Shown: positions 2,261-59,280 of the stretch, piece after piece | Numbering within the stretch: the first letter of the stretch is position 1 | How the letters are laid out: each line of letters begins with the position of its first letter | NCBI RefSeq assembly: GCF_001625215.2 | Contig: NC_030383.2 | Span: 63,664,949 to 63,728,948, forward strand | Direction: 5' to 3' | Source: Daucus carota subsp. sativus | Taxonomy: Eukaryota; Streptophyta; Magnoliopsida; Apiales; Apiaceae | Length of the DNA: 64,000 bases | Made by a program: the position numbers and the translations under genes | The notes under the pieces: generated by a model | Database searches by the model: none | What the model saw: the letters and a program-made list of their open reading frames with translations, nothing else | What the model was told of the DNA's origin: nothing

Positions 2261-3000
2261 CACTACAAGAAATGGGAGTAATTTTAACCACAAAAAACTG
2301 GTCGCTTTTAACTAAATTTGACTGCTCGGTCAGTGGTCGTATATACGCTTGTCAGTGCAACAATTATATCAAACATAAGAAATTAATCATATCTACAATA
2401 TTGAAATTATGAAATTACACTTGATAATTTAAAGTGATCTCATGTTTAATTAAACAATGGTGAACATGAAATGGGGGAGTGTTAAAGAGAGGAAGGAGGG
2501 GGAGTGATGGCATAGAAATATTATTGGCGGTAGGGTTGCTAATTTGACACGTGCAAATTCAACTGAGAACATAGAATTTAATATTTTCGACTGGAAATGG
2601 TTGAATATATAATTTACGACTAAAAATAGTTACATTAGTCAAAACTGTTGAATACATTATATTATATTATATCGGAATCGGTCGTCTTTATTATTTTCAA
2701 ACCGGGTTTTGTTGAATTAACTCAAAATGTATTCGAAATTCATTTCTAAATAAGCTGTAAAATTCCCGCAAAATACATAAATTCGACCGATATATATTCC
2801 ATCATTCCCGGTCGATATTTTCCATCATTCATGGCCCTCCTCGTCTTGGCATGTTGCAGTATTGAATTCGACCGATGTCGGTTGAATTTATATATATAAA
2901 TGATTGGATAAATTCAACCGCACATAAAACATAACCAACTATTTATGACCGCATCAAAATTGAAACGATGTTAGTCAAATTTTAGCTTGACTTGAAAATT
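2261..3000 (+). mobile_element. CACTA-like transposon remnant
   Basis: The left end reads CACTACAAGAAATGGGAG, typical of plant CACTA (En/Spm) termini. It is followed by several sub-terminal motifs in both orientations (gaccga, tcggtcg, ggttgaat), as expected for the transposase-binding regions of such elements. A matching right terminus (TTTCTTGTAGTG) was not found, so the right limit is approximate and the element is probably truncated or diverged. No transposase is encoded. Confidence 0.45.
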
Positions 3001-3562
3001 CCTTTAGTTTGGTACGTAAATTTAACAATGTTCCTGAAAATAAAATTGTTATTACTGGTAAAAGAATAGGTGGAGCCAAACCGGCCAAAGATCTTGCATA
3101 TTACTTATCAGCCATTGTTACAGCCAGCGGCCACTTTGACAAATACCCCTGACATCAGGATCAGTTTTTTTTAGCTCTCAAGCTTGATGTTTTAGTTCAT
3201 TAAATCAGCCACCAAGTCTAGCTTGAAGGGATTCTTCAGTAAATTATAAGGATGACTACATCATAATGTTTACTCTTATGATTTTAGCTTACTGTTCCAA
3301 AAAGCTACGGTACTTATAAAACAGTTGTACTAGTACTTCTAAAGAAATTCATGGACAAAAAAAAAAAAAAATTATTTTATTATACAAATATTCGCCATCA
3401 GATAGTGAACAACAAGCTTTCTCAGGTAACTTGAGAGACCTGTTAAAGTACTTCGATGACTGTTCAAACTGTATCAATGTTACAAGACCAAATCACTCAG
3501 CAAACCTTATCCTCCTCCAGGTGTCCTGTAGCTTTTGCGAATATTTCATTGGAACGACATTG

Positions 3563-6500
3563 TCACGCACCAATGGTAGATAATATCTGCCAACAAAAAA
3601 GATGCAAATGAGAGCGTTCATTGTTCACGAAGAGTTGTCTTTTGTATTTGTGTATGTCAACAATCTTTAAAAATCGATTCTGCATTTAGAAATTAGAACA
3701 ATCCATGCTACACAGTCAATGATTTTCTTATGACACTATATGAGGCCAATTCAAGAACTTTGACAGTTGCTCCCAGGACCAAATAATCCATGATGTAGCC
3801 CCAAAAATATCTTATAGCAATCCAATGCATTAAGTTCAGTGAAAGTTCAGACCAAGAATCCCAGACCTTCAGGCAAAGTGCAGCTTATTCTTAAAATTCA
3901 CGTGTGTGCCATATAATTAGAGTTCACAATTGACATTAAGAGGTCAAATTCCATTGTAATGAACTTAACAGGAGGTAGAGAAATCCAAGATACGAAGGTA
4001 ACATCATAATTAACATAAGAGTTAATTTATAAAGCATCCATTTGGGTGATGAAAACCCACTCGAGTGGAGTGGTCCCGTCATTGGACTGAGATAGAATGG
4101 TCCAGAGATGAGAGACATCACGAGAAAATGTTTTGGTAAGTGGTATGATGGTCTTTTGTTACAAAAGATTTGTAAAGGGGAGAAGTATCCGTGATTGAGA
4201 AATTAGGGCATGAGCTTCAACTGAGGTAGGCAAGTAACAAATGGGAACGAAACCGCTTTTCTTCAAGTTACAGCTCTCCAACTTTATTATAGTGAGCTGT
4301 GGGTCACAGTCTCACAAGGGATAAGAATTTGGTGTCACCCAATTCATTTTGTGTAACCTTACATCGAAATAGTGTTGCATTGGAGTGAGTTATACACTAA
4401 AACTTGCACTACATTGGTGTATTAGTTTGGAATTGTAGATGCTCTAAAGACTGAACAAGGTGTTACCTACCTTGTCGGTAAAAAGTCGAAATGCATCCAC
4501 TTCCATTGCTTTATCAAATTCCTAAAAGCAACAAAACGCCATATATTAATGTGACTGAATTGATGTTATGTAATCAGTCTCTTATTAATTTATCAGTACA
4601 ATATGAAAAGGTTAATGGCAAGTAGTTTTTTTCTATCTTTAGCATATCAGTACATACACTTTCAATATCTGCAGAATTTTCTATTTTGCATATGAGTTTC
4701 TGAAGCTCTTCATTCTTCAAAGCATCAATAACTTCGCTCGAAGAAGCTGCAATAATATAGTTTAGTATATATTTAATATTTGAATGTTATAAAAGGTTAA
4801 TGAGAAATACCTATGGACTCAAGTTGTGACTGCTGCAACACTATGCTTGGTTCATCAACAAAGCATGGCCTTTCAACATGCGGATTTGGAGCTAGAAAAG
4901 AGAATTTGTAAATGAAGAACAACTTAATCAGAAACAAATTCAAATTAAGAACTTCGCAAATATTAATATTAATATACGATGAAACATAGGTGCTACAGGT
5001 TTTTACACCTAGTTTTATTAACACGCCTGTAAGCAAACTAATATTATTAGAGCATTGCCCCGCATAAGCAAAGGAGGCCCATTTCAAGTAAAGAATCAGA
5101 AGATCTTGGACTAAGCAAGACACATTAGGGATGTGTAGCGAAGGATGTGCAACAAACAACAAAGAGTGCACTGCAGTTCACTTTAGACTAAGCAGCACCG
5201 AACAGAAGTCAGCATTCAGTGTAACAGTATAGTATTTATAATTTGGCATAACTCATAGTTGAAATAGTAAACCACCTTCACCAGATATGTGATACAATGT
5301 TGTCCCAGCACACCTAGTGGATTTTTATAAGGCAAAACCCAATATAAAAATTCTATATCTGAATCAATGAATGCCAAACTGTTTTTACAATAGATCAAAG
5401 GACCGCCTGGGTCAACTACCATTCCTATAATCCTATGACTAAGCATGGGTTCTGCTTTCAAATTCGTGTTCCTGTATCCCTTTACAAATATAATTATCAG
5501 AATTAAAAAGTTGAATTTGTTGTCGACATATATTTATACATATACTTCATAACTGATTCACTGAAATGAATATCATTTATCATGAATACACATATAGTGG
5601 AGAATATAAGCAAATGCATGTTTTGATAGGTTTTCCAAGCTGACCGATCCCATTACATGATTATCCATGGTGAATTTCAGTTTACAGCAAAAAGAAATCA
5701 TATGATCATAGCACCAAAAATAATATTCTTCAACATTTTACAATAAATAATACTAAAAATTAGAGCTCAAGAATAACGACTCGTACCAAATTTTTTCTCT
5801 GCGGGTACTGCCTCCTTAACGCATGGAATTTCTGCAGTATTTGATTCAATCAACATCAACTTACCACATAAGCCTCAACAATTTGTGCTACCAAAATCAG
5901 ATATGTGCTGATGTGAATGGACACATTACAACTTACAAGGACGCATTAAAAGACCTGACATTGACTCTGGTGTTTTAATTCAATAGAGAAATGTAGATTA
6001 AAAACTTTAGAATCCAGAATAGCATATCCAACTTCCATAAAAATAAAAGATGTGTAAACCCATAAAAAACTTGGTAAAACAACCTCAAGCAAATAAGGAT
6101 ATGCATGTGATGTTAGACCTGCACACCTAGTCGACCTTATAACGAAACCTGATATTATAATCCTATGTCTGCAGAACATTAATTTAAATGACAAAATAGG
6201 CAAAGTATTTATGTAACATATTGACCAGCAAAGAGTACAATTATTTTCGAAGCTATAATGCCTGATTCTTTGTCGAGATCAACTATACAGATCCAGAAAA
6301 TAGATAGCATATCGGCATTAGGAAAAAAAATGTTTATATTGACGAGCAGCTATAAATTTAATTGATCCAAAAAATTTACTGTCTGTCATGAATGCAAGTA
6401 AAGAGAACATAGGCGATGCATACTTATTTAGTATATCGTTGGCAACCAATTTCAATCATGATTATTGGTGCTGGTTCAAGGTTTACAACAAAAAGTCAAT

Positions 6501-7437
6501 AACAGGTACGTATCTCCAAGTGTGATATCTGTCAACAATCTAAAACAAAATAAAAGCAAAGATGCAGAGTTTAAGGAGAAAGACCCTCACCAATTTTTTC
6601 TTCCGCGGGTTCTGCCTCCTCCTTAACGCACTGAACTTCTGTAGATTTGTACAAGTCAAAATGAGCTTTATCATTAAGTTACCAGCTCCCCCTTAAACCT
6701 TAACGTGGTAGGAGGGTTTAATTGAATCATAAATATTTAGCATTTCCTTCACCCGACAACCCATTGTTTGGGATAAAAGTGTGGATCGCTAGATCCTGTC
6801 TCTACAGATAATATTCAGCCTTATGGCCCATATTAAATATTTTTAAGGAATATCAGGTTTACCAGATTAATTTTACAAGAACTCATAAATTAGACATTAA
6901 CTTGTGTCTTAGTTAGACTCGAGTGTAGCAATGTCACGTGTGTGTGTGTGTTACACAGACCAAACCAACTAATTCAGTAATTCTAAACGCTGAACAAGGT
7001 AAACAAATTCTGACACCGTGGTTTCAAATTGATCGAAAAATGCCAATTCTAATCAATTACTTTTGCACATACACAATGCCATTTCTAATAAACACAAAAA
7101 ACAAAATCTTTATATAACCCACATACATTAGCAATTCATATATACAGAATCAAAAAGCAATAAACTCAAAAACCCTTAAAAATCCCACCTTTATGTTTCT
7201 TGAAACAACCCAAAGAACAGCTGCAAAATCCAAAAAATCAAAAAATAATCAAACCCCATCTCAAGATTTTACTAATAAATAAGTCCTGACCAAAAATTAA
7301 CAGAAAAAAAAAATATTATGAGAAAAATAAAAATAAAGAAAGAGGGGGGCTTACTAAGGAATAAGACAAGCAGGGCACTTGTATTTTGAGTCAGCTTCTT
7401 CGCATACTTTGCACTTCTTCTTTGCCGCTCCCACCAT
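3563..7437 (-). CDS. ZNHIT3: HIT-type zinc-finger protein, ZNHIT3-like
   Basis: Eight coding exons on the minus strand: 7437-7355, 7220-7189, 6638-6591, 5831-5787, 4891-4811, 4746-4658, 4521-4471 and 3586-3563. All junctions keep phase and the model gives about 150 residues. The N-terminus has the HIT zinc-finger ligand pattern (CKVCEEADSKYKCPAC, then YCSLGCFKKHK and a final Cys). The C-terminal part (LQKLICKI, then AFRLFTDKILSTIG) matches plant ZNHIT3 proteins as I remember them. ZNHIT3 family members act in the nucleus in box C/D snoRNP assembly. Exons 3 (48 bp) and 4 (45 bp) are tandem duplicates (VKEEAEPAEEK versus VKEAVPAEKK). The protein may therefore carry both, or they may be alternatives. 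The last intron holds a copy of repeat R1. The ATG at 7437 is the first in frame, and the gene family assignment is strong. Confidence 0.85.
4079..4308 (+). repeat. Dispersed repeat family R1, copy 3 (ZNHIT3 intron)
   Basis: Third copy of the repeat seen at 276-470 and 1777-1990, lying in the last intron of the ZNHIT3 gene. It shares gtatgatggtc, gagaaattagggcatgagc, gttacagctctcc and ctttattatagtgagc with the others. Confidence 0.65.
5030..6640 (-). repeat. Tandem segmental duplication inside ZNHIT3
   Basis: Exon 3 (6591-6638) and exon 4 (5787-5831) lie 804 bp apart. The flanking intron phrase gcacacctagt recurs at about 6121 and about 5308, an offset of about 813 bp. A similar offset for exons and intron implies duplication of a unit of about 0.8 kb rather than chance similarity. 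The introns have diverged a good deal, so the event is not recent. Confidence 0.7.
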
Positions 7438-7499
7438 TGATAAGTAAAAATAATCGGCTTATAAGTTGATTTGTTTCAGCTGTTTGGGGGCGTTTCAAG

Positions 7500-8250
7500 A
7501 GGGGGCCAGGGGAAGAAGGGAGAGAGCAGAGACGGTGGTTTTGATTTTGGAGGGACAAAAGTTGGGCTTAAAGCCATTTAACTATGGGCCTGGGTGTTTT
7601 TGTTGGATGGGTTGTTTTCTATTTGATAATGGACTTTATGTGTTTCATGACATTCATGTTGGAGGTAAGGGCCTGGTTAGCGGGTGGTGAAATAAATACA
7701 ATTATCAAATCGAATATTCATTATTTATTTATTTTTGTCATAATTCTCATCATTATTGTTCCCTTTCCCATTTCATATAAACTACCTCTCTTTTTTCGAT
7801 ATCTCAAAATTTTTTATTATATAATTGATTTCTTTGTTTTGATTAAAATGAATAGTAAATAAAGTTGATAAATCTAAATAAATTATTATAAATATTAGAA
7901 ATCATAACATCGTACTTGGTTATGATAATATTTAGGAAAAATATGTAAATAATATTTTTACTCTTTAAACTCATAATTAAAAATACATATAATTTATTTA
8001 AATGACCGATTTGAGATCGTTTGGAGTTTGGTGTCCAACTTATCCATCGAGTTCTAATATTGAATATTCTAGCATTGTTTGTAAATAAAATCCGAAAATA
8101 AGATTATATAGTCAGTCGAATACATAAACTGATTCTAGCATTTAATATAATTTTGGATTTTTTTGAAAATACTCAAGTTATAAAAATTATTTTCAAAAAT
8201 ACGGTACAACTTAATTTGCAACCTCGTTTGGAACTCGTATACATGAAAAT
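7500..8250. other. AT-rich intergenic stretch
   Basis: This stretch lies between the 5' end of ZNHIT3 and the glycine-rich protein gene. It contains overlapping short plus-strand frames (7466-7690 and 7584-7862) with no recognisable domain. I see no convincing gene or transposon ends here. Confidence 0.5.
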
Positions 8251-10190: not shown

Positions 10191-10325
10191 TATAAATAAC
10201 CAACCTGTGACTCTGTGAGTGTAGAGTGTTACTACTAGTTCGCGTACTGGTATTAAAACATAAGAAAGATGAATTTAGTTTACGGGCATGTGCATGTGCA
10301 GCACTGAGAGCGAACATGCAAGGTA

Positions 10326-10582
10326 CTCCCTCGTCCCCTTTTACATGTCCATTTTGCTTTTCGAGGAGTTAAATTGACCAATTTTTGACTAAACATTACA
10401 AATTATCTACTCATTATTTCTAAAAACTGAAACTTGCATATTAAAATAGACTAAATATACTTTCTAATGGTATAATTTATATTATTTTTCTCAACTATCT
10501 AATACATGTAAAGTTCAGTCAAAATATAATCAATTTGACTGGTCAAAAGTCAAAATGGACATGTAAAAATGGACGGAGGGAG
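10326..10582. mobile_element. Stowaway-type MITE
   Basis: The ends are CTCCCTCGTCCCC and GGACGGAGGGAG, and the inverted similarity continues inward (acatgtccattttg against caaaatggacatgt). The element is flanked on both sides by TA, the target duplication used by Tc1/Mariner-type Stowaway elements. It is 257 bp and non-coding. Confidence 0.85.
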
Positions 10583-10589
10583 TAGTAGA

Positions 10590-23607: not shown

Positions 23608-23851
23608 CTCCTCGTTCCATTTAATTCTATACGTTTCTTTTTCACCGCTTGACACGCACTTCAATACTTCTATAAAAAATAGTTCCATGACTTATTTTTA
23701 AATATTTTTTCTGAATAAAAGTAACATTCAAATTTTTATTCAGATTGAAAAAATCTTAAAATTAAATTATGAAACTATATTTTACTGGAGCATTAAAGTC
23801 TGTGTCACGTCCCCGTCCTCCAATGTATATAACTTAGGAGGATGGAGGAAG
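23608..23851. mobile_element. Stowaway-type MITE
   Basis: The left end, after TA, reads CTCCTCGTTCCATTTAATTC. The right end reads GGAGGATGGAGGAAG before TA. The inverted ends are imperfect, and a 244-bp non-coding body lies between them. Confidence 0.65.
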
Positions 23852-25944: not shown

Positions 25945-26558
25945 TAATTCAAGTTAAGGCCACAATATTATTTAGTTATTTTTATTATCAGACACTCCAT
26001 CGCATTATTCTAGTAACGAGTAATGATAATTTTAGGGTGTTGCTAAATACAGTTCATTTTTGCTTTCTGCAGTTCGCAGATATTACAAATATGACCTTAA
26101 CCTTATTAAATGTATCAAACCCTAATAAATATGTGTTGTTGATTACAAGATGTTTACTTCTGACTACTTCTACGTACAAGCTTTGGCTAGATGCATATTT
26201 ACACGTGTATAATACTATGCTATGACACTAATTTGTAAACAATCATTTTCTTACTTTCTTGATTTAAAATTTTAAAATATTTAGATTTTAATTCTAAAGC
26301 ATGCATTCTTTTCAAAAATATATTATAAAATATAATTATCACGTTTCAATAATCTATTAGTTTTGTATATATAATATCATGAATTAATATAATTATTGAT
26401 TATTGATTATTACAGGTTCCATTCACTTTTATAAATTTTAAATACGTTTAAAATTTCGTGCAAAGAGTAATTTTATTCACAAAAAAAAAATTAAAATTAC
26501 AAGAAAAATTATTAAAAATTACTTTCATAATATTTTGTAATTTTTATTTTTGGATGAA

Positions 26559-26560
<2 letters not shown>

Positions 26561-26609
<49 letters not shown>
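26561..26609. repeat. (AT)n microsatellite
   Basis: An almost pure AT dinucleotide run of about 45 bp, inside the element at 26035-27848. Confidence 0.95.
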
Positions 26610-26612
<3 letters not shown>

Positions 26613-26768
26613 TCATATGTTATTTAAATAAAAGAATTTACGTATGCATGCACTTGCAACTAATAAGATATAAGTGTATAATGAATTAATGATGAATCGT
26701 AATTTCCAACTGTTCCATGTTAAAATATTACTGGGATTTTATAATTTTATTTATAAAAATATTTATTA

Positions 26769-27440
26769 AGTCAAATAAAAAATATATGAATAAAACTTAT
26801 ATATCCAAATTATCTTTCTAAATCCTTAATACATATTAAAGGTTCTAGACGAGTTAAAGGTTATATTATAAAAAAATCAAGTATATTCTATTTTAACTAA
26901 TATATTATATGAAACACTAGTGTAAATTTTTTAATATTTTATGTTATAGGGATTTTAGCCCATTTAGCCGTAATGGTAATTAGGGCCCGCCCGGATAGTA
27001 TAGTTTTAACTTGTTTTGATTAAATGAGAATAAACAAAATAAAAAATTAAACACATCGATAAAAAATAAAGAAGTCGATATAATTATATATAGAGTCAAG
27101 TTTTTTAATTATAAATTATACACTAAGTCAAATAAAAACTATATGAACAGATTATGTATAAAAATTATCTTTCTAAATTCTTAATACATATTAAAGGTTA
27201 TAGGCCAAATAAAATTTATATTATAATAAAATCAAGTATTTTTATTTTGACTAAAAAATTATATCAGACACTAGTATTAACTTATTAATAAAATAAAGTA
27301 TTTTATTTATAAAATTATATGTAAAAAATATGAATAAATTTTATTTATACAAATTATCTTTTTAAATTCTTAATACATATTAAGGTTAATGGTCAACTAA
27401 AGATTATATTATAAAAAAATAATCAAATATAGTCTAATAT
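26769..27440. repeat. Three diverged internal repeat copies
   Basis: Copies start near 26769, 27123 and 27310. Each contains, in order, atatgaa, aaattatctt, taaat, cttaatacatatta and gattatatt/ttatattata. The distances between copies are unequal (about 355 and 190 bp). All three are in the same orientation within the larger inverted-terminal element. Confidence 0.7.
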
Positions 27441-27859
27441 AGTCATAAAATTTTAAGTTGTTTAAATTAAAGTTGTGAATGCACAAGCAATTTTTCAACA
27501 AAAACTAAAAAGAATAAAATTAACAAGATGATAACAAATCAAATCTATTTATTAATAAATAAATAATTAGTAGACACACCGACATGAATATATTAACATG
27601 CATGTATGTATTATCAAACAAAAAGAATGTACATATTAAATAATATTCATGCATATGCATCAGTTAATAGTTGAAAAAAAAAATTTTAATATATTAGTTA
27701 ATGCTCGTATACGTAATCCAGTTCACGTGCACAAAAAATTAGGGCAGACTTTGTTTGTTTGCTAACATTAGGCAGAAGTTTAGTAAGGACACATTTGTAA
27801 TCTCCGTGAACTGTACGAAGTAATTTTGAACTGTATTTAGCAACTATGTAATTTTATTA

Positions 27860-28430
27860 TTTGATCATAGATCAATCAGGTCCAATTTAATTAACCATTA
27901 ATTACTAGGATGGTATTATCGAGTCTCGATAATTTCAGCGACTAAGATGCTTTATAGTATAGTTTCAAAAAAAAAAAAAGATGCTTTATAGTAGTTTTAA
28001 CTTAAGTGATTATTATTTTGAATTTGACTCTTATGAGAATTAATCCTGGTCTAAATCTATAATTGTGTGATGGATCGATATCATTTGCACTTCAACTAAG
28101 TGACTCCGTCCAGTTGAAATTTAACAGCCAGAAATTGGTCATTCGGCAGAAAAATTGGCTCATGATGTTGAAATTTAACTATAAATCCACTTACTAACTT
28201 GTCAACGACATGAAACAAAATAAAAAGGAATTCCTCAATCTGCGGTAGACCAATATCTATACGATTTCACCATATCGTGTGCGTGTGTATAACGACGAAG
28301 AAAGTTGCGCCACCGATTAGCTCTTACGGGACAAGCCCGTCAATTAGCGAAAGAAAATGCTAGTTTAGATATCTAATAGTGATTTCCATTTTTTCCCCTC
28401 AAATATCAGTTTATAATATTTTATTTAGGG
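27860..28430. other. AT-rich intergenic stretch
   Basis: No gene or bounded element recognised. A short duplicated phrase, aaagatgctttatagtag, occurs around 27950-27990. Confidence 0.4.
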
Positions 28431-31818: not shown

Positions 31819-32708
31819 GAGCTATATGCAATTGGCACCCCTTATGTTTGGACATAATGCACATTGCACCTAATAGTTCCTAGACTTTTAACCTGTAGAC
31901 ACTTTGCATCCTTTCCGTTAATTTCTGCCGTTATTGTTAATTTTTGCAGGGGCATTTTGGGATATTTAATTATATTTAATTAAAATCAGACCTTTATTTA
32001 AATTTTCAGACCATCTAAACGATATTTTTCGGAAACACTTAAAGAACGAAGGTTGTAGTGAATAAAAAAATCTTCTTAAAACTATAAGTTTCAAAATTTT
32101 CGTAATTCTTTTTATAATTATTCTAAAAAAAATTCAAAAATTAGAAATCTTGTAAAAATGAACAATCGTTTTTAAATAATTATTTATATTTTGAAGCTTA
32201 TTGTTTTAAAAAGATCTTTTTATTCTCTACAACTTTCGTTCTTTAAATTTTTCCGAAAAATATTATTTAGATGGTCAGAAAATTTAAATAAAGGTCTGAT
32301 TTTAATTAAATATAATTAAGGGGGTGTTTGGATGATTGGTGGGAATGGGAATGGGGGGTATGGAAATGGAGGGTATAGGAAATGGTAACCCAAGGGGTGT
32401 GGAGGTATTGATTTACCCTTCACGAGGGAATGAGGTTCCCATTCCAAGCAAAAATTTTACTAATCCAAACACAATGTATGGGTATTAGGTTCTGATTCCC
32501 GTTAACCGAGCTCATTAACCATCAACCAAACGCCCCCTAAATTTCCCAAAATGCCCCTGCAAAAGTTAACGGTAACGGCGGAAATTAACGGAAAGGGTGC
32601 AAAGTGTCCACGGGTTAAAAGTCTGGGGCTGCAAAGTGTATTTTCTAAAACTATTAGGTGCAATGTGCATTATGTCCAAACATAAGGGATGCCAATTGCA
32701 TATAACTC
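31819..32708. mobile_element. Palindromic Mutator-like MITE with 9-bp target duplication
   Basis: The two halves are near-perfect inverted copies of about 320 bp. Left end GAGCTATATGCAATTGGCA pairs with right-end complement GAGTTATATGCAATTGGCA. The match continues inward through tatgtttggacataatgcac, the ttaatttc(t/c)gccgtta segment and aaaatcagacctttatttaa, to a centre near 32150. A perfect 9-bp duplication TAAAAAATA flanks it (31810-31818 and 32709-32717), as for Mutator-type insertions. It encodes no transposase. The right arm is interrupted by a Tourist element. Confidence 0.9.
32320..32537. mobile_element. Tourist/Harbinger MITE nested in the Mutator-like element
   Basis: Starts GGGGGTGTTTGGATGATTGG and ends AACCAAACGCCCCC, with TAA on both sides (32317-32319 and 32538-32540). 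Removing it would restore continuity of the host element's right arm with its left arm. It therefore inserted later. Confidence 0.85.
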
Positions 32709-39529: not shown

Positions 39530-39928
39530 TTCTGCAGAAACTATACTTCTGCTGCATAATTGAAATTATAGCATACATATTGGGATAGATATCAAAGTCT
39601 ATCACTCGTTTAATTCAAATTTATCAAATTAGTCACTAACTTCAAAAATTCAATCAATTTGGTTACCAACTTAAAAATATGTATCAACTTAGTCATTGAA
39701 AAGTTAAAAAAATTGTATTAATTTAGTCATTGGCTGATGGTTTACAGTTTACTTGATACAAAATTTTAAATTAGTAACTAAATTGAGTCAATTTTGAAAT
39801 GAGTGACTAACTTCATATATTTGAACCAAACAAGTGATCCCTTCGATATTTATCCCCATACATATTATACAGCAAAACAATATGCACGGATGATAAAACT
39901 TCATCAGGAGATAAACAGGACTCACCTT

Positions 39929-46225: not shown

Positions 46226-46450
46226 TGGGACAATCAGGGCGAGCACATAACCAGAACCGGATCCTTATGCAAGTCATTTGTTCTTCTACCTTGCTGTTTG
46301 CAGATTTCCCTTACGGCTCAATCCTCTTCACCAAAATCAGGCCCAACCAATTGCTCAAAATCCGCAGCCATTATCACCCAATCAATTATATATAACCCAA
46401 TATACCCCCTCATCACATCCATCCATCCATTCATTCTACCTTACTCATGA
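46226..46450 (-). pseudogene. Decayed tandem copy of the FAS1 gene 3' end
   Basis: The segment duplicates 46459-46683 with a period of about 233 bp. It includes the last 30 or so codons of the FAS1-like gene and the DNA beyond its stop. The copy still reads VMRGYIGLYIIDWVIMAADF, against VMRGKIVLHIMDGVIMDADF in the gene, and ends with GEED and the same TGA. It has no start or upstream part, so it is a gene fragment and not a gene. Confidence 0.8.
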
Positions 46451-46550
46451 ATTCCCGTACAAGGCATTCTTTTAACCACATAGCAAAAATAGAATCTTTA
46501 TGCAAGGCATTCTTTCTTCTACCTTACTCGTTACAGAATTCCCGTACGAC

Positions 46551-47147
46551 TCAATCCTCTTCGACAAAATCAGGCCCAACCGATTGCTCAAAATCAGCAT
46601 CCATGATCACCCCATCCATTATATGCAACACAATCTTCCCCCTCATCACATCCACTCGTTCACTCCTCACTCTATTAATAACCAACACCCCCTTCTTATC
46701 CTTCGAAACAAACAACCCAAATCCCGACAATGAATCATAATACTTCTCCTTCTCAACATCCACAGACCCCAAAACAATTCTCCTAGGCACAACCGAAAAC
46801 CCCAAAATCCTACTAATTATCGCATAAGTATTATCAAATTTCTCACCAAGAACCAAACTTTCACTCAAATTCAACCTCAGATCCCTCTCAAAAGCCTTTT
46901 GGGACGGCATAAAAACCGTAAAAACCAAATCTTGAGGCAACATGTCAAGCATCATTTCACCAAATTTCCCAATCACATGACCATTTTCTACTTGCAAAAC
47001 ATGATGATTCAACTTTCTGGGCATGATTAAATTCATTTTTACATCAGGGAGCCTAAGAACTGAGATAATTATAACAGATAAACAAGAAACTGTAATTAAA
47101 ACACCAACATAAGCTATTACATTTCTTGAAAATGAGCTTCTCTTCAT
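46551..47147 (-). CDS. Membrane-anchored FAS1-domain (fasciclin-like) protein
   Basis: Intronless gene of 198 residues. A single hydrophobic segment near residues 10-32 (VIAYVGVLITVSCLSVIIIS), preceded by MKRSSFSRN, fits a signal anchor with the remainder outside the cytosol. The remainder resembles one FAS1 domain. FTVFMPSQKAFERD corresponds to the H1 motif, and VINRVRSERVDVMRGKI with VLHIMDGVIM corresponds to the H2 region. FAS1 proteins act in cell adhesion and wall matrix. No arabinogalactan Pro-rich region and no GPI signal are seen, so this is not a classical FLA. The 3' end of the gene is tandemly duplicated just downstream. Confidence 0.75.
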   Translation of the reverse strand: MKRSSFSRNVIAYVGVLITVSCLSVIIISVLRLPDVKMNLIMPRKLNHHVLQVENGHVIGKFGEMMLDMLPQDLVFTVFMPSQKAFERDLRLNLSESLVLGEKFDNTYAIISRILGFSVVPRRIVLGSVDVEKEKYYDSLSGFGLFVSKDKKGVLVINRVRSERVDVMRGKIVLHIMDGVIMDADFEQSVGPDFVEED

Positions 47148-57361: not shown

Positions 57362-57499
57362 TGTAAACCCTAGCTTGTAGAGACACAAAGTTTGTATGTA
57401 TAGAGATAGGGGGGAGAGAGAGATGGAGAGAGAGAAGGGGAAGCGTGTTAATGGAGGTAAAGGGAGTAATTTGAAAGAGGAAAGTTGATGGAAATTCAA

Positions 57500-59280
57500 T
57501 ATTTATCCTTTTGACAATTTGACTTTAAATAAATCTTCATAAATTAATAAATTTGATATTTCTAATTGTATTAACCTATTTATTAGAATTTAATTATATA
57601 CAAATTTTAATGTCTAGTTGTTTTTAAGCATTTTGACAAAATTACTTTATTAATAATGAATACTATATCTTAAATAAAAAGAAAAATATTTTTAGTGTTG
57701 TTTTTATATTGCAGACAGTGGAAATTGTATATATCTTTATATCATTTTTTTTATCGATTATATATATAATTATATCATATTTTTTTTAAGATATCTATAA
57801 TTTAAATATTTTTAAAAAATTCTCTCTAATCAGCTTCTTAATTGGAATTTTGTACGATTCAATTTTAGGTAAAATTGGTCAAAATTTATATAATTTATAT
57901 TTAATGATTTAAAGTAATGAATGCAGGGCATGTGAGTTGGCTGGGAATTGGGAAAGCAAGAACTCATGTGATGGCCTACCCACCTGGTCATTTTTAAGGT
58001 ATCTTCAGAGATCTAATTTCATGCCAAAAGTTTATAATATATGTCTATCATTATTGTCTTTTCGGTTCCAATTTTTTTTAATTTATATTGATAGATTAAA
58101 ATATTAAAATTTTGATCAATTGTCTATAACGAAAATTTTTAGAGATTTTTATTTAATACATGTTTTAAGAGAACTTTTATATGTTAAATAATATTTGAGC
58201 ATTGTTTTGAAATATTTATATATAATTACTTTGACTAGTTTATTTATTAAAATTATATATGATACATCTAAAAAAATATAAGAAAAACATTTTAATTAAA
58301 AAATATATATTATTTGAATGTAAAATACTTTTAAAACAAAATTTACTGATTTACCACGTCATCAAAAATTTGAGAAAAGAAAATATAGAGCATACATTTC
58401 AAAATGCTGATTTTACGGTCAGCAGAATTCTAGGTGTTTTTCTTTAAGGGGACACATAGCTTTTTTCCTGTAAATAGACTATAGGTGCTGCAAAGAACAC
58501 TATTTTATTAATACTGGTCCTTTAAGTTACTTATGTTTCATCAAATAATAAAGTATTCTCTGGAAAAAAAATGGAAATTATTTGTAACATTTATTCTTGT
58601 GACAATATTAACTGCCTTATAAATATTTCATTTCCTAAATACATTGTAACATATATACATGGAGTGGATTAATATTATAGCATTATTATATAAGATCTAA
58701 GATTTAATTAGTCTAAGGTATGTTGATATAGTCTCAAAAAATTAGAAAGTCAGATTGTATTAATACACAGAACTCATTCCTTAATCCTTCCCAGTCAAAA
58801 AAAAAGACAAGTCTGGTCAGAATATTAATCAGACCAAGAATTTCTAGAAGCAATATGAATTTTCTTCTGGTACAGCTTACCAATAACAATATCTAACAGG
58901 AGCAGCTGTCAAATGCACCTACATCATCTCTGCATATATCACTACTGGGTTTAAGATCAGAAACCCAGAATACCAGCAAAGTAATGGAAGAACTAAGCCA
59001 ATAGTCGAGTTTTCGATATTGCTGTGGAAAGATATGAAAGAACTAACCAGTCTTCTAGTAGAAGAGATTTTAGATGCATTGATCTCATGATCTTGCAAGA
59101 TGAGGTTCATAAGAGCCGAATTTAAGGGCCAAGTAATTTCCATGACTTTATAGCATTAAAAAAAATGTGAAGTATTCATCAAATTATATTTCGAGGTACA
59201 AAATGCTCTCTGCTCAGTTGTGACTATCAAAAAATACACATACCCGGTTCTTGAATACATTACAACTTGGACAGCTGACT
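57500..59280. other. AT-rich intergenic stretch between VAMP and NSN1
   Basis: No gene recognised. Frames at 58259-58447 and 58919-59143 have no domain and AT-driven composition. The region presumably contains the VAMP promoter and, near 59280, the NSN1 3' untranslated region. Confidence 0.5.

Follow-up and report, generated by a model that had tools for sequence, protein, structure and literature searches.

A tandemly duplicated small exon at the end of the HIT zinc finger in a predicted ZNHIT3-like gene of carrot

Of nine reading frames examined in the analysed window, a 64 kb stretch of carrot DNA (33% GC), five belong to genes for an LRR receptor kinase, a pectate lyase, a fasciclin protein and a GTPase, a content that points to plant nuclear DNA; a sixth stretch with a kinase domain is the second exon of the same LRR receptor kinase, and the other frames are either unmatched or parts of these genes. 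On the minus strand we identified a ZNHIT3-like gene with coding exons running from 7437 to 3563 (Table 1), for which the model, predicted from splice signals, frame and protein match, comprises eight coding exons that are open to a single stop. Four of its six internal exons (E2, E3, E4 and E7, with 32, 48, 45 and 51 nt) do not exceed 51 nt, a length that falls within the plant microexon size as given in PMC12409088. Searches for relatives in viral contigs (8 stretches fitting a pattern) and prokaryote genomes (60 stretches) yielded no confirmed case, as expected for a plant gene, and scans against Rfam (gathering threshold) and for tRNAs returned no matches.

Table 1. Coding exons of the predicted ZNHIT3-like gene and the two copies of the duplicated segment (positions within the window).
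Feature	Position	Strand	Content
E1 (coding part)	7355..7437	-	start codon at 7437; carries Cys ligands 1-4 of the HIT finger
E2 (32 nt)	7189..7220	-	codes for CSLGCFKKHK
E3 (48 nt), copy A of the duplicate	6591..6638	-	EVQCVKEEAEPAEEKI
E4 (45 nt), copy B of the duplicate	5787..5831	-	EIPCVKEAVPAEKKF
E5 (81 nt), downstream exon common to the isoforms	4811..4891	-	phase 1 acceptor
E6 (89 nt)	4658..4746	-	
E7 (51 nt)	4471..4521	-	
E8, coding part of the last exon	3563..3586	-	includes the stop codon
Duplicated segment, copy A	6057..6668	-	30 nt upstream, E3 and 534 nt of downstream intron
Duplicated segment, copy B	5250..5862	-	31 nt upstream, E4 and 537 nt of downstream intron

The adjacent exons E3 and E4 are homologous (37 of 45 aligned bases identical, plus one 3-nt gap), and the initial annotation had described them as tandem duplicates with phase 1 at both ends, of which either or both could be spliced in frame. 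The AG/GT borders and frames bear this out: all four combinations of the two exons remain in frame and reach the same stop, with predicted products of 150 (2-3-4-5), 135 (2-3-5), 134 (2-4-5) and 119 (2-5) residues. All four isoforms match the zf-HIT domain (PF04438) with 42.9-43.2 bits (cut-off 24.7), a match that stops at residue 35, upstream of E3 and E4, and therefore does not distinguish between the isoforms; the ZNHIT3 C-terminal domain (PF21373) reaches 12.6-12.7 bits, under its cut-off of 27, in three of the four, the both-exon isoform being unlisted. Over the HIT finger, the isoform with E4 only matches human ZNHIT3 (PDB 2YQQ) with E 2.9e-07 and yeast Hit1 (PDB 2N95) with E 1.5e-06, while the both-exon isoform matches them with E 2.7e-08 and 1.2e-06, respectively. 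Judging by the match to ZNHIT3/Hit1, the gene product would be a box C/D snoRNP assembly factor.

Each of the two exons, as had been noted before, opens with E-x-x-C. In each the Cys lands at H-x4-C after CFKKHK, and E3 or E4 alone could thus supply the Cys that completes the HIT finger. The HIT zinc finger is described as having eight ligands in the arrangement CCCC-CCHC (PMC5460035); with either exon present the predicted carrot product has all eight, the eighth at H-x4-C (ligand positions being assigned by sequence only). The isoforms 2-3-4-5, 2-3-5 and 2-4-5 keep this Cys, whereas the omission of both exons (2-5), in frame as it is, loses the last ligand. The spacing past the His differs from that of human ZNHIT3 (HKEQC, x3) and agrees with the x4 spacing of ZNHIT1 (HQETRC). 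Plant ZNHIT3 proteins presumably carry HKEIPC or HKETPC, in which case E4 would be the older-like copy; against this, the human HKEQC shares its Q with E3.

The likeness of the two copies extends well beyond the exons, into the downstream introns. Alignment of copy A with copy B gives 398 identical columns out of 652 (79 gapped) and a score of 231. Shuffling the segment 300 times gave at most 61, and shuffling a longer stretch 200 times at most 79; the intron part alone scores 157 (maximum 62 in 300 shuffles). With both scores well over the shuffle maxima, the initial proposal of a true segmental duplication stands, as does that of a near-constant offset between the copies, which amounts to 804-808 for the exons and the BLAST match ends and to 813 for the common CACCTAGT motif. 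In relation to a full tandem unit of ~806 nt, the detectable homology ends ~200 nt short; for the missing tail of ~200 nt no homology was detected, its score being equalled in 144 of 300 shuffles, and here a subsequent loss of sequence, an insertion, a replacement or a faster decay has probably intervened. Among six comparisons, two weak matches of intron 2 were found: one with the final part of intron 4 (score 46; 1 of 300 shuffles does as well) and one with the stretch upstream of E4 (score 39; 12 of 300). That the likeness of E3 and E4 is due to chance or to a repeat-element artefact might be entertained in a window that is AT-rich and contains many diverged repeats (at E <= 1e-6, 42 rows, including 8 self-inverted ones), but chance resemblance is contradicted by the shuffles, no third copy of the block or of the exon was found when 3000-7500 was compared with the window at E <= 1e-3, and we regard this explanation as having a negligible probability.

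Simulated pairs, aligned in the same way and matched on score and identity, place the divergence of the copies at ~0.4-0.5 changes per site. Substitution rates in plants lie between 4e-9 and 1e-8 per site and year, and under these assumed rates the duplication would be about 22 to 56 million years old. The exons (37/45 bases identical) differ from the introns (361/528 aligned bases identical) with p = 0.063, or with p = 0.049 when only the first 200 nt of the intron are considered. Between E3 and E4, 3 of ~9 synonymous and 5 of ~33 nonsynonymous sites differ (dS 0.46, dN 0.17; 14 codons, leaving aside the unpartnered E3 codon and the codons split at either exon end); nonsynonymous change compares with intronic change at p = 0.052 and synonymous with intronic change at p = 1.0, which with 14 codons makes for a weak test of constraint. 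Since both copies have kept their AG, GT, frame and Cys while the introns diverged, we consider, with moderate confidence, that E3 and E4 are probably both real, retained exons. In simulations a single copy free of constraint remains intact in 9-20% of cases and additionally holds its Cys in 4-11%, an argument for retention that is inflated in that the exon pair was picked for looking intact.

With regard to splice signals, the predicted pairing of the donor with U1 is -8.6 for E3 and -4.1 for E4, that of E6 being weaker still (-2.1), and the acceptors contain 9 (E3), 7 (E4) and 9 (E6) pyrimidines out of 17, as compared to 11-13 in E2, E5, E7 and E8. The few acceptor pyrimidines of both exons, together with the weak donor of E4, suggest that one of them may be skipped often, although the strengths of donors and acceptors do not settle the splicing pattern of the pair. 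Furthermore, both exons are rich in purines (fraction 0.71 in E3 and 0.62 in E4, against 0.50-0.57 in E2, E5, E6 and E7), as would be enhancer-like sequence, though by the count of purine tetramers (9 in E3 and 5 in E4) E6 equals them with 8.

Taking the above into account, we favor as the likelier explanation an ordinary exon duplication, in which both copies would be coding exons with no enforced choice between them. An old intragenic tandem duplication copied a small exon, its acceptor and ~0.5 kb of downstream intron, and both copies would have remained coding exons that are spliced in. Since E3 and E4 are symmetric (phase 1-1), have lengths that are multiples of three and encode only the last finger ligand and a charged linker, a transcript with E3, E4 or both would yield one complete HIT finger, with a linker of varying length; splicing would then not be mutually exclusive, either both exons being included or one being skipped as a cassette. 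A different possibility, which we hold to be unlikely, is that one copy is disused or spliced only as noise, leaving one main isoform. In its favor, E4 has a poorer acceptor tract and a weaker donor than E3, a lone neutral copy does survive intact in the above 9-20% of simulations, and the neutrality of one copy, under which 7.0-8.4 nonsynonymous differences are predicted, would fit the 5 observed (P(<=5) = 0.16-0.30). Against disuse speak the splice sites, frame and Cys, intact in both copies, and a nonsynonymous divergence below that of the introns at the p value given above.

Less likely still, in our estimation, is the mutually exclusive use of E3 and E4 that the initial annotation had put forward, by which each transcript would carry one finger-closing exon and the two isoforms would differ in the linker and beside the zinc ligand that completes the finger. 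In animals, exclusive splicing frequently accompanies the tandem duplication of exons (PMC9013439, PMC5224494), and both exons have kept the Cys at H-x4-C, which in E4 is of consequence only where transcripts lack E3; however, in the simulations a neutral exon that stays intact retains the Cys in roughly half of the cases (0.42-0.56 by division), so that its retention says little. The mechanisms of mutual exclusion described in PMC6071210 are steric limits, U2/U12 mismatch, frame-dependent decay and competing RNA structures, and in the sequence we found none of them: the intron between E3 and E4 (759 nt) is not so short as to impose steric exclusion, both introns are GT-AG with donors (GTGAGG, GTACGA) that do not look U12-like by eye, and both exon lengths are multiples of 3, which leaves no room for frame-dependent decay. 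The RNA pairings tested do not exceed shuffles either, as those of three candidate docking regions with both downstream introns were matched by 33, 27 and 9 of 40 shuffles, and for those across E3 and across E4 equally good values arose in 43 and 56 of 60 shuffles, respectively. Moreover, in the order of event types given for safflower (PMC8428823), mutually exclusive exons come last of seven. The more specific idea that the plant varies a box C/D snoRNP assembly factor through protein-regulated splicing, which would select one of the two ancient duplicates to provide the closing ligand of the HIT finger together with the linker that follows, is one to which we would assign an even lower probability.

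Ordinary duplication, our preferred reading, would place the pair in a known class of events. Tandem exon duplications with mutually exclusive splicing are well described in animals, and the carrot exons resemble the cases presented in PMC9013439 and PMC6071210 in being adjacent and homologous, in their copied flanking intron, in their similar lengths and in their shared phase. A further parallel is offered by exons Ab and 3 of U2AF1 (PMC5224494), likewise a duplicated pair in a zinc-finger RNA-processing factor, for which regulated, mutually exclusive use is reported; in the carrot pair such use would be only a possibility, and both lengths permit joint inclusion. Unlike the tandem duplications of PMC9013439 and PMC6071210, the pair described here comes from a plant and not from an animal. 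In the open-licence literature covered we found no plant ZNHIT3 exon pair (one may still exist in print), and a passage search of the plant microexon paper PMC8831610 gave no mention of ZNHIT or HIT-type. The pair would illustrate that a duplication can be tolerated where either copy completes a fold, and if splicing chose between the copies, this would be an uncommon type of event for a plant. In our view the exon pair is real and old, it probably has a function, and it belongs to a known kind of event; a choice between finger-closing exons is possible but unsupported.

Several repeats are present in the window. A dispersed, MITE-like repeat of ~230-290 bp occurs in three copies (245-471, 1702-1983 and 4010-4302; 70-83% pairwise identity), one of which sits in the last coding intron of the ZNHIT3-like gene. 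Long palindromes (self-inverted, 67-82% identity) were detected at 10324-10584, 23650-23807, 31966-32319 and 39573-39865, and are possibly MITEs or foldback elements, while direct and inverted repeats form a complex cluster at 26022-27861, to which a stretch 30 kb off (57468-57812) is related. The 3' coding end of the fasciclin-domain gene has a gap-free tandem duplicate of 189 bp (46244-46432 and 46477-46665; 81.5% identical, offset 233), and the copy behind the stop retains the reading frame and a stop codon at the same place.
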